Of a stretch of DNA of 64,000 bases, positions 34,167 through 63,460 are shown piece by piece. Made by a program: the position numbers and the translations under genes. The stretch is from Ruegeria lacuscaerulensis. GTDB lineage: Bacteria > Pseudomonadota > Alphaproteobacteria > Rhodobacterales > Rhodobacteraceae. Location: contig NZ_WQDY01000007.1 of assembly GCF_013033355.1 (NCBI RefSeq), forward strand, positions 124,001 to 188,000, written 5' to 3'. The notes under the pieces are model-generated. The model was not told where the DNA came from. It was given only the letters and a program-made list of their open reading frames with translations, and did no database searches. Every line of letters begins with the position of its first letter. Positions within the stretch are counted from its first letter, which is position 1.

Positions 34167-35306
34167 TTAGGCGAAATAGTCCCGCAGGATGCGCGTGTAG
34201 ATGGCCTTGAGCTGTTCGATCTGTGCCACCTCGACGCATTCATCCACCTGATGCATGGTGCGGCCCACAAGGCCGAATTCCACCACCGGGCAGTGGTTCT
34301 TCACAAATCGCGCGTCCGAGGTACCGCCCGTGGTCGACATCTCGGGCACCACACCGGTTTCCGCCTCAACCGCCTTGGCGACCAGGGCGGACAGAGGCCC
34401 CGGCGGGGTCAGAAAGCTCTCGCCCGAGATCTTGATGCGCAGGTCGATCTCAACCCCGAACTCATCGGCCACTGCAGCGGCCTCGGCCCGCAACCAATCG
34501 CTGAGGCTGGCCCCGGAATGCAGATCGTTGAACCGGATATTCACCGCCCCTGTAGATTGCGCGGGGATCACGTTGGTTGCCGAGTTGCCCGTGTCGATCG
34601 TCACCACGGCCAGTGTTGAGGCGTCGAAATGGTCTGTACCCTGATCCAGCTCGTGGCTGGCCAAACGATCCATCAGCCGCGCCATTGCGGGCATCGGGTT
34701 CTTGGCGCGGTGCGGATAGGCCGCGTGACCCTGTACCCCGGTCACGGTGAACCAGATGTTCATCGAGCCACGCCGCCCGATCTTCATCATCTCGCCCATT
34801 GTGTTGGGGCAGGTCGGCTCGCCCACCACACAGACCGACATCTTTTCCCCGGCGCTGTCCATATAGTCCAGCAGGGCGGTGGTGCCGTCCAGCGCATCGC
34901 CTTCCTCATCCCCGGTGATGGTCAGGATGACGGCCCCGTCGGGCGGCGTGTCGCGCACAAAATCAACGGCCGCTGCGGCAAAGGCCGCCACTCCGGATTT
35001 CATGTCCGTCGTGCCTCGACCAAACATCACGCCATCTTTCACCTCAGCCCCGAAAGGTGGCATGGTCCATGCAGCCTCATCCCCAACCGGCACGACGTCT
35101 GTATGGCCATTAAAACCAAAGCTGCGCGGATGCCCCTTCTCGCCCCAGCGTGCAAACAGATTGCAAATCCCGCCGCGATCGACACGGGTGCAGGCAAACC
35201 CCGCCTCCGCCAGCAGCTTTTCCAACAGAACAAGGGCGCCCCCTTCATCAGGTGTGACCGATGGGCAACGGATCAGGTCCGCTGTCAATTCTACCGCATC
35301 TGTCAT
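34167..35306 (-). CDS. dapE: Succinyl-diaminopimelate desuccinylase DapE
   Basis: DapE releases LL-diaminopimelate from its N-succinyl form in lysine and wall synthesis. The 379-residue M20-type zinc enzyme has [13 protein letters not shown] (first His/Asp), [10 protein letters not shown] (bridging Asp), the [11 protein letters not shown] catalytic Glu pair, and the C-terminal His in the [10 protein letters not shown] context. The ATG at 35304-35306 gives the family N-terminus; a 16-codon upstream extension is unlikely. dapD lies about 2.4 kb upstream on the same strand, separated by other genes. Confidence 0.95.
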
Positions 35307-35514
35307 TTCTTGCCCTTTCTCTGCACTGAACTGCATCTTCGCGCACAGATTCAACGAATTGGCGGGATTGCCAACCCCCGCACGGCACGCTTCACACGCT
35401 TTTTTGCAGTCTATCTCGCGATGTCATGTCAACAAAACATTGGCGTTTCCGTTGCGATTGCCTTGCCGCCCAATTCGAAATCGCGTTAGAGGGCCGCGAA
35501 ACAGGTAAATTTCG

Positions 35515-36573
35515 ATGACACGCGCTTTTATCGCTTGGATCTGCCTGACTTTCGCCGTTCTTGCACAGCAAAGCCAGGCTCAGACTTTGACGGTCACCAC
35601 TGTGACCCGCCAACCGTTCTCGTATGTCGAGGACGGGGCAGAGACCGGATTCTCGATGGATCTTCTGGCTGCATTGGCACAATCGTTGGACTGGGACTAC
35701 CAAATCAACCGGGTCGAGGGGTTCGGAGATATGCTGGTCGCAGTGCAGGACGGATCAGCAGATTTGGCCATCGCCAATATCTCGATCACGGCTGCGCGCG
35801 AAACCCAGATGGATTTCAGTCAACCGATTTTCGAGGCCGGGCTTCAGATCATGGTGCCGTCGGACGCGATGCGCCGCCCGTCACTGTTGCAGGCGTTGTT
35901 GTCGGTCGAGCTGTTCATCGCCATCGGGCTGGCCTTTGCCATCCTGCTGGGCGGAGGTATGCTGATGTGGGTGTTCGAGCGCCGCTCGCAACCCTATTTC
36001 GATCGCAAGCTGGACGAAGCGTGGTTTCCGTCCTTCTGGTGGGCGCTCAATCTGGTCGTGAATGGCGGGTTCGAGGAACGGATGCCGCGCACACCCTTTG
36101 GGCGCTTGCTGGGTGTTGTTTTGGTCGTATCATCCCTGTTCATCGTGTCTGTCTTTACCGCGCGGATCACCTCGGTGATGACGGTGGATGCGATCAGCGG
36201 TAACGTGAATTCGGTGAATGATCTGTACGGAAAACAGGTCGGAACGATCTCGAACTCGACTGCAGCCAGCTTCCTGAACCGGCGCGAGATCGAATTTACC
36301 GGATACGACAGTCTTGAACCCATGCTTGACGCATTCCGGGCCGAAGAACTGGACGCGATCGTCTTTGATGCGCCCATCCTGTCCTACTATGCATCGCACG
36401 AAGGACGCAGATTCGCGTCCATGACCGGCGGGGTGTTCCTGCGCGAAAACTACGGCATAGCCTTTCCCACTGGGTCGCCTCTGGTCGAGGATGTCAATCA
36501 GGCGCTGCTGGCGCTACGCGAAGATGGAACCTATGACGAAATCTACCGCAAATGGTTCGGGGCGCGGAACTAA
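35515..36573 (+). CDS. Prokaryotic ionotropic-glutamate-receptor-like channel (binding fold split by an NMDA-like pore)
   Basis: The 352-residue protein has a signal peptide (1-22), then lobe 1 of a periplasmic binding fold (about 24-128) with Arg95 in [16 protein letters not shown], the position that binds an amino acid alpha-carboxylate in glutamate receptors. A membrane helix follows (132-154), then a re-entrant pore loop (about 170-192), a second helix (197-222) and lobe 2 (about 228-350) with Asp285, the amine-binding position. This is the GluR0 layout, but the loop reads [15 protein letters not shown] with Asn183, without a TVGYGD potassium filter. It ends in [13 protein letters not shown], like the SYTANLAAF gate. 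The gene is solitary. Most likely it is a ligand-gated channel for an amino acid; ion selectivity is unknown. Confidence 0.85.
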
Positions 36574-36914
36574 GCTGGTTCCTCATCCCCGAAAAACGGT
36601 GTCATCTGGGCGACAATAACCGCGTTTTCGTCCAACGCGCGCTGCATCAGGGCGCGCTCATCCGGGTCGATGTCATGCCCCTGCGCCTCGCGTTCAGCCA
36701 GCGTGCCATAGCCGGTCACATCCAAAGGCGCTGTGTCAGCCTGTTTCAGGATGGCGACGGTTTCACGAACGGCCTCGGCTTCGTCCACGCCACTGGCAAA
36801 GCACATCAGCGCCGCACCGGTTGCACCTTCAGGCAAACCATCGCCTTCCTTGCGACCGATCTGCACAAGCAGGGTGTAAACTTGCTGACGAGAGGGTTTC
36901 TTTTGCTTTTCCAT
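36570..36914 (-). CDS. Conserved protein of unknown function
   Basis: With the ATG at 36912-36914 this is a 114-residue soluble protein with no signal or membrane segment. It begins [25 protein letters not shown], has a hydrophobic centre ([26 protein letters not shown]) and ends in an acidic tail ([10 protein letters not shown]). I do not recognise a named domain; it looks like a Rhodobacteraceae-restricted protein. It is convergent with the receptor-like gene, overlapping it by four bases, and lies downstream of the LysE gene on the same strand. Confidence 0.7.
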
Positions 36915-36960
36915 GCGCCCGGCCTTATCGCCGCGCCGCGTGTTGGTCAAGCGCGGGGCA

Positions 36961-37587
36961 CTAACGCTCGGCCGTCGCCAGTTTGAGCGCCAGCGCCACG
37001 AAGATCACGCCCGAGATTCGGTTCAGCCACAGTTGAACGCCTGGCGACCCGCGCAACAGCCCGCCCAGAGTACCCGCGGCCAGCGCCACAGCACCGAATA
37101 CCACGACCGTAGCCAGAAACATCAGAGCGCCCAACTGATAGAACTGCCCAATGATCGGCCCATTATTCGGGTCGACGAACTGCGGCAGAAACGCCAGCAT
37201 GAAGATTGTCACCTTGGGATTGGCAATATTCATGATCAAACCGCGCAGAAACAACTTGCGCGTCGCGATACGGGGTGCATTTGCACTGTCCAGCCGGGTT
37301 TCGGTGGCCGTGAAGGCTTTCCACGCCAGATAGACCAGATACCCCGCCCCGGCATATTTCAACATGGCAAAGGCCGCCTGCGAGGTCTGAAACAGCACCG
37401 CAACCCCGAACGCTGCCGCAGTGGTGTGTATAATCAGCCCAGATGCCAAGCCAAGCGTCACAATCAGCCCTGACATCCGGCCATAAAGCGCCGATTGGGT
37501 CAGTACAAAAATATTGTCCGGCCCCGGCACCGCGGCCAAAGCGATGGCAACGCTCATGAACAAAATGACCACGTCAACGGGAATCAT
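36961..37587 (-). CDS. LysE/RhtB-family amino acid exporter
   Basis: The 208-residue inner-membrane protein has about six helices and the family opening PGPDNIFVLTQSALYGRMSGLIVTLGLASGL. It also shows the mid-protein YLVYLAWKAF and the ANPKVTIFMLAFLPQFVDP segment. LysE/RhtB proteins export lysine, threonine, homoserine lactone or similar amino acids. It is co-directional with and downstream of dapD, a lysine pathway gene, so lysine or a relative is a reasonable guess, not a proof. Confidence 0.88.
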   Translation of the reverse strand: MIPVDVVILFMSVAIALAAVPGPDNIFVLTQSALYGRMSGLIVTLGLASGLIIHTTAAAFGVAVLFQTSQAAFAMLKYAGAGYLVYLAWKAFTATETRLDSANAPRIATRKLFLRGLIMNIANPKVTIFMLAFLPQFVDPNNGPIIGQFYQLGALMFLATVVVFGAVALAAGTLGGLLRGSPGVQLWLNRISGVIFVALALKLATAER

Positions 37588-63384: not shown

Positions 63385-63460
63385 GTGTATTACCCTTCCA
63401 GATACACGCCCCTCGTTGGGGAGGGGTGTCCCGCCGCCACACCTAGAAACCCCTCGGCAG
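63385..63460 (-). ncRNA. serC leader RNA (cis-regulatory 5' UTR element)
   Basis: The leader shows a last hairpin GTGTAT/ATACAC (63385-63390 with 63402-63407) directly before the ATG, with the purine-rich ribosome site in its loop. This matches the known serC leader of alphaproteobacteria, whose final stem overlaps the ribosome site. Upstream is a stem 63425-63429 with 63439-63443. In addition, 63421-63426 can pair either with 63409-63414 or with 63450-63455, giving two exclusive folds. The ligand or signal is not known to me. Confidence 0.7.

Follow-up and report, generated by a model that had tools for sequence, protein, structure and literature searches.

An ionotropic-glutamate-receptor-like protein with an NGGFEE pore loop in Ruegeria and its roseobacterial relatives

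The 64,000-nucleotide stretch of Ruegeria lacuscaerulensis DNA analyzed here (contig NZ_WQDY01000007.1, positions 124,001 to 188,000; henceforth the window) carries at positions 35515-36573 (+) an open reading frame (ORF) of 352 amino acids with an ATG start and a stop codon, whose product almost certainly has the architecture of an ionotropic glutamate receptor (iGluR). Its pore loop bears the residues NGGFEE at the position of the K+ filter TVGYGD, and the pore helix together with this filter is the most conserved part of the protein. With moderate confidence in the explanation as a whole, we favor a periplasmic-ligand-gated, probably glutamate-gated, weakly selective tetrameric cation channel of the prokaryotic iGluR family. 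For two of its parts our confidence is higher: the protein is quite probably a conducting channel, and to the same degree we expect its pore not to be K+-selective.

The original prediction, made from the letters alone, had described a channel with an N-methyl-D-aspartate (NMDA)-type pore loop in place of a potassium filter. Its ORF, coordinates and quoted residues were borne out by the sequence, and the two residues assigned to ligand binding, Arg95 and Asp285, recur in all 117 homologues with NGGFEE.

Architecture, ligand site and conservation of the pore

In order, the protein comprises a signal peptide, the lobe S1, helix M1, a re-entrant pore helix with its loop, helix M3 and the lobe S2 (Table 1). 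The M4 helix and an amino-terminal domain are absent; the 352 residues end with S2, and only the signal peptide precedes S1. Three Pfam families match over their cut-offs: SBP_bac_3 is the strongest (1.7e-29, residues 29-349) and is split by Lig_chan (2.8e-13, residues 141-242, 50.4 bits), and Lig_chan-Glu_bd covers lobe 1 (1.3e-12, residues 24-115). Ion_trans_2, in contrast, stays with 4.4e-4 and 20.5 bits under its cut-off of 22.5 bits. The AlphaFold model of the 352-residue protein reaches a predicted local distance difference test (pLDDT) score of 93.1, and the best 50 PDB matches returned for it by Foldseek are eukaryotic iGluRs, every one. A PDB sequence search with the whole protein placed the Nostoc GluR0 core 2pyy first (2.1e-43), followed by glutamine-binding proteins, GluA2, the plant GLR3.4 and GluN1. 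Pfam and AlphaFold thus agree with the original proposal of an iGluR-like membrane protein with amino-acid-type lobes and helices around a re-entrant pore helix.

Table 1. Positions in the window of the channel gene and of the predicted parts of its product.
Feature	Position	Strand	Basis
iGluR-like channel subunit (predicted), 352 amino acids, complete ORF	35515..36573	+	Pfam; AlphaFold, pLDDT 93.1
Signal peptide, residues 1-22	35515..35580	+	By eye: hydrophobic N-terminus ending SQA-QTL; model helix 2-19; least conserved segment
Ligand-binding lobe S1, residues 23-117	35581..35865	+	
Arg95, ligand alpha-carboxylate site (role from PMC2950845)	35797..35799	+	117/117 NGGFEE homologues
M1, residues 131-153	35905..35973	+	Model helix 131-155; mean hydropathy 2.16
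Re-entrant pore helix, residues 166-183	36010..36063	+	Model helix 166-183; overlaps the most conserved segment, residues 171-192
Filter NGGFEE, residues 183-188, at the TVGYGD position	36061..36078	+	Ungapped K+-channel alignment; synonymous codon changes
M3 gate helix, residues 194-228	36094..36198	+	Model helix 194-228
Ligand-binding lobe S2, residues 226-352, with S248, T249, D285, Y313	36190..36570	+	
Asp285, ligand alpha-amino site (role from PMC2950845)	36367..36369	+	117/117 NGGFEE homologues

Conservation was assessed on 55 homologues kept at less than 80% mutual identity, of which 50 were aligned, the window's own included; the set thus consists of the query and 49 homologues with 51-80% identity. 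Residues 171-192, which span pore helix and filter, show a mean column identity of 0.96 with 15 of 22 columns invariant, compared to 0.67 in S1, 0.68 in S2, 0.70 in M1 and 0.82 in M3. Among 117 distinct DNA stretches, themselves selected for NGGFEER, synonymous codon change occurs at all six filter residues. Twenty Ruegeria genes reveal a median ratio of nonsynonymous to synonymous substitution rates (dN/dS) of 0.060 for the whole gene and 0.026 for M1-P-M3, with 188-190 of 190 pairs used, pairs without dS dropped, and median dS values near 1.2, close to saturation. As judged from these sequences, the pore is the part most guarded by selection, and therefore conduction is favored over a mere anchor. 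A chance ORF or a pseudogene is ruled out by the one intact copy in the 4.64-Mb Ruegeria genome, by the presence of the gene at no less than 76% identity in 53 of the 54 Ruegeria genomes (the window's own counted, one genome lacking it) and by the dN/dS of 0.06. The nearest named records are from Ruegeria, namely R. lacuscaerulensis (92%) and Ruegeria sp. THAF57 (91%).

The ligand site is nearly as uniform within the 117 NGGFEE rows, where Y313 is found in all 117 and S248 and T249 in 116 each. A rule cited in PMC12226733 predicts glutamate from Gly, Ser or Thr at GluA2 position 653, Thr at 655 and Tyr at 732. Thr and Tyr of the query fit this rule, but its first site departs from it with Asn247, in a column occupied in the NGGFEE rows by Gly (69), Asn (20) or Asp (18). 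The mapping of the three GluA2 positions onto the query is provisional and depends on the GluA2 numbering adopted. In the alignment, Gly-Ser-Thr and Tyr occupy the equivalent sites of 2pyy, which has glutamate bound. L-glutamate is hence the candidate that we favor, at about even confidence, with glutamine as an alternative. A further residue, R32, marks a clade-specific site: it is present in 117 of 117 NGGFEE rows versus 4 of 19 rows with a K+ filter and 6 of 42 others.

In the mechanism that we propose, four subunits would assemble in the inner membrane around a pore of inverted K+-channel type, made of M1, a loop entering from the cytoplasm, and M3. The lobes would face the periplasm and clamp on an alpha-amino acid, likeliest L-glutamate, bound through Arg95 and Asp285; their closure would pull M3 and thereby open the pore. 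Asn183 would sit at the narrow Q/R/N site with the Glu rings 187 and 188 on its cytoplasmic side. A filter of this make-up, with Asn183 and two Glu rings, would therefore not select for K+, so that Na+ and K+ pass, perhaps with some Ca2+. An open channel would, in sea water, admit Na+ and depolarize the cell.

Filter register and competing explanations

When residues 120-232 alone were searched against PDB, the pore region matched GluA2 (3.9e-4), 4h33 (4.8e-4), KvAP (6.5e-4), KcsA (8.9e-4) and GluN1 (5e-3). Against the K+ channels the loop aligns gap-free with NGGFEE over TVGYGD, whereas against GluA2 one residue is gapped; the claimed absence of a K+ signature is confirmed by this alignment and by the Ion_trans_2 score. 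HMMER pairs query residues 172-226 with residues 211-265 of 8uue (GluN1), and since both stretches are of the same length, the coordinates place the GluN1 Asn opposite N183. By this alignment N183 takes the Q/R/N position, where NMDA receptors have Asn as well, and E187 the +4 position. Because the Q/R/N site is the first residue of the K+ filter, such an N-site match follows for any Asn loop in register.

It is unlikely, though the strongest of the alternatives, that the protein is a non-conducting membrane-tethered amino-acid receptor, in which helices and loop serve as anchor or signaling element around a closed or dead pore. No channel activity is on record. Moreover, R95 or D285 is missing from several distant homologues, or their loops diverge strongly, and other functions are therefore conceivable in parts of the wider family. 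The original prediction had named loss of these two residues among homologues as a point against the channel; both are kept in all 117 NGGFEE homologues. Against a plain anchor stand the conservation maximum at residues 171-192, the dN/dS of 0.026 in M1-P-M3 and the K+-channel register of the filter, which an anchor would not need.

The preferred channel might also be K+-selective despite NGGFEE, in the manner of GluR0 or of AvGluR1. The pore region is equally close to K+ channels and iGluRs, GGF still has an aromatic residue and the Gly at the center, and the homologues include K+-filter proteins. We nevertheless hold this to be improbable: Asn and Glu stand in place of Thr and the second Gly of TVGYG, the Ion_trans_2 score has dropped to 20.5 bits versus 51.9 and 59 bits in two K+-filter homologues, and two genomes of the family, G003 and G103, each have a TVGYGD homologue (L193 and L194, respectively) besides the NGGFEE one.

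Slightly more doubtful still is a pore of NMDA kind that admits Ca2+ and is specifically akin to animal receptors, the explanation suggested by the term 'NMDA-type'. N183 faces the N site of GluN1 without a gap, and E187 is acidic at +4, a site where PMC12226733 links an acidic residue to polyamine block. Loop scores (BLOSUM62, ungapped) were computed over the 20-residue segment of the original prediction, whose GluN1 sequence was exact and is identical to residues 220-239 of PDB 8uue. The query loop scores 38 to GluN1 with 8 of 20 residues identical, a value attained by 1 of 10,000 shuffles; the ungapped match at the N site is real, though not peculiar to GluN1. The 117 NGGFEE rows have a mean of 37.8 to GluN1 and 32.0 to 4h33, and the 19 T(V/I)GYGD homologues average as low as 29.4 to GluN1, two results that weigh against the weakly selective channel without special animal kinship which we prefer. 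However, the same 20 query residues score 37 to 4h33 and 39 to KvAP (27 to the KcsA chain), and 5 of the 19 homologues with an intact K+ filter score 38-53 to GluN1, the highest value being that of L170. On these sequences the query loop appears to be tied between GluN1 and K+ channels, the clade mean leaning slightly toward GluN1. Taken over its full length, the pore region is matched better by K+ channels and GluA2 than by GluN1; furthermore, the clade forms one branch within bacteria in our bacterial-only tree, and Lig_chan scores are higher in another bacterial group. The N183 register and the clade mean speak for an 'NMDA-type' loop; the better pore matches of K+ channels and GluA2 and the tie of the query loop speak against it.

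The further suggestion of a bacterial form closer to the animal pore is not supported by these comparisons. Lig_chan gives 50.4 bits for the query but 53.7 for the K+-filter homologue L162 (40.7 for L193, also with a K+ filter) and 72.1 for L158, which has no K+ filter; the L158 value contradicts a 'most animal-like bacterial pore' in Ruegeria. L158 has the top Lig_chan score among eleven scanned homologues and belongs with L160, L131 and L145 to another iGluR-like group from alphaproteobacteria and, in case of L145, a cyanobacterium. The filter of L158 and L160 is shorter (TLATQADQMP), and the group has M3 motifs such as FYTAQLTASLTV. Judged by these sequences, the group appears to resemble animal or plant receptors more than the query does.

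Finally, an ATP-binding cassette (ABC) transporter substrate-binding protein fused to a membrane anchor is highly improbable, since, although SBP_bac_3 is the strongest Pfam match and relatives are annotated 'transporter substrate-binding domain-containing protein', the helices interrupt the binding domain, an arrangement shared with iGluRs, rather than sitting at a terminus, and none of the seven neighboring proteins scanned is an ABC permease or ATPase (partners could lie elsewhere).

Distribution, descent and gene neighborhood

The family-wide search, which covered 198 genomes, yielded 41 full-length loci at no less than 47% identity; a match in G064 (53%), split at residue 299/301, falls outside this full-length count. 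NGGFEE is carried by 38 of the 41, in 37 genomes, one of which has two copies; the remaining three, in three more genomes, read NGSFEE, SGGFGQ and NGGFEV. Conservation of Asn183 among roseobacterial homologues, which the original prediction had proposed to check, is in good agreement with these counts. In the set of related loci the motif occurs in 80 of 80, a figure partly ascertained, NGGFEERM being one of six search seeds. Among 178 distinct homologues aligned, all of at least 290 amino acids, 117 have NGGFEE, 19 T(V/I)GYGD and 42 other loops, the last number including overlapping loci of genome G383. At higher taxonomic levels, a class-wide Lig_chan search hit 12 of 385 genomes, 8 of them over the cut-off, and a protein search across the phylum at 1e-10 found matches in 64 of 398 genomes, many via the binding-protein lobes only.

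A tree of 84 bacterial proteins, without eukaryotes, was obtained by a quick search with the filter columns removed and without bootstrap, and was drawn with its root at the midpoint. In this tree, 44 NGGF rows, the three variants among them, make up one side of a branch with a Shimodaira-Hasegawa-like approximate likelihood ratio test (SH-aLRT) value of 95. The nearest rows outside this clade are L157, then L159 and L195, also without a K+ filter. The K+ label needs three changes on the tree, two of them forced by well-supported branches, and all three labels together need four; therefore, the filter changed more than once in bacteria, direction and timing not being given by the tree.

A further clade comprises L147-L152, L154, L168, L171, L172, L174, L175, L178 and L197, with named members from Hyphomicrobiales and Paracoccus. 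It has loops such as SGK..RKNLFGW and retains R95 and D285, and we regard these proteins as putative channels only; Lig_chan is weak in L171 (20.0 bits, under the cut-off). On the alphaproteobacterial contig of G383, four iGluR-like genes (L130, L142, L143 and L144) lie within about 5 kb; in the alignment they lack the R95/D285 pair, and their loops are unusual.

Gene neighborhoods were compared for the 69 loci with full 5-kb flanks out of 80 fetched, genes being called by similarity to those of the window. Near the channel gene occur dapE (68/69), a conserved protein of 126 amino acids (67/69), dapD (58/69), RNase R (57/69) and LysE (1/69). The gene of the 126-residue protein, at 36570-36950 (-), meets the channel gene tail-to-tail with an overlap; its product has no match in Pfam or NCBIfam. 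As dapE is oriented away from it and the 126-residue gene is oriented toward it, the channel gene is probably transcribed alone. That it keeps this place across loci points to vertical inheritance and is hardly informative on the ligand.

On an evolutionary scale, we tentatively propose that roseobacters share one clade of glutamate-gated cation channels, passed on by vertical descent and bearing NGGFEE at the place of the K+ filter TVGYGD; this change of selectivity, maintained by very strong selection, would be separate from that in animals and plants. Some genomes would keep a K+-filter relative, giving opposed depolarizing and hyperpolarizing responses to amino acids.

The flanking LysE exporter and the dap genes had been taken as hints of an amino acid signal. 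The LysE-family gene, at 36961-37587 (-) between the 126-residue gene and dapD, is probably a local insertion, because it is found near only one of the 69 related loci, and LysE or lysine as the signal is rejected on the same count. The genes dapE and dapD did prove to be conserved neighbors, but they lie on the opposite strand from the channel gene and share no operon with it; we read them as synteny, not as a hint of the signal.

Scanning 35300-36700 returned one promoter-like site inside the ORF (0.5 in shuffles) and one terminator-like site (1.5 in shuffles), neither used as evidence. The 64-kb window contains no tRNA, and its sole Rfam match at gathering score is a serC leader RNA (RF00517, 69.8 bits) at 63385-63436 (-).

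Relation to known receptors

Ger et al. described in 2010 a total of 22 prokaryotic proteins of S1-M1-P-M2-S2 topology (PMC2950845). Twelve of them have a K+ filter and make up Group 1; the pore loop of the other 10 could not be assigned, and this Group 2 was held to be closest to eukaryotic receptors (PMC2950845). Group 2 includes YP_168531.1, there named glutamine ABC transporter periplasmic protein (PMC2950845). Group 2-type topology is present in the query as well, with S1 and S2 lobes around two transmembrane helices and a pore loop. YP_168531.1 is probably the Ruegeria pomeroyi orthologue. Another 2010 survey counts 23 prokaryotic iGluRs in 971 prokaryotic genomes (PMC2924276). The earlier statement that known prokaryotic relatives carry TVGYGD is apt for the GluR0 type, but the K+ filter is lacking from some prokaryotic iGluRs already published (PMC2950845). 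The open-licence literature searched yielded no recordings from a non-K+ (Group-2-type) prokaryotic receptor, and on glutamate receptors of Ruegeria it yielded only unrelated work.

The protein bears on the question of how a K+-filter glutamate receptor turned into a non-selective one in animals and plants. Marine bacteria that can be cultured here offer a simple two-helix receptor lacking a K+ filter, in which ligand gating and selectivity could be measured side by side with relatives whose K+ filters are intact. It could also inform on the bacterial use of an amino-acid-gated cation current.

With GluR0 of Synechocystis and the Nostoc GluR0 core 2pyy, the query shares the lack of M4, the fold of the ligand-binding domain and the Arg/Asp pair. 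It differs in the filter: GluR0 of Synechocystis has the K+ signature (PMC3483616, PMC12332018), while the TXVGYG filter of this type (Group 1) is absent from the query and NGGFEE is found instead. GluN1 shares with it the Asn at the aligned N site without a gap, followed by Pro-Arg and Arg; unlike GluN1, the query has neither M4 nor the amino-terminal domain, and its pore region as a whole matches K+ channels and GluA2 better than GluN1. With Group 2, it has in common the topology, the conserved Arg and Asp and the lack of a recognizable K+ filter, but the main text of PMC2950845 gives no clade-wide filter motif, whereas NGGFEE is near-invariant in the roseobacter clade. This kind of protein is thus already described (PMC2950845); the present analysis contributes NGGFEE as a clade-wide motif and the degree to which it is conserved, sets the NMDA claim against controls, and shows that K+-filter relatives occur in some of the same genomes.
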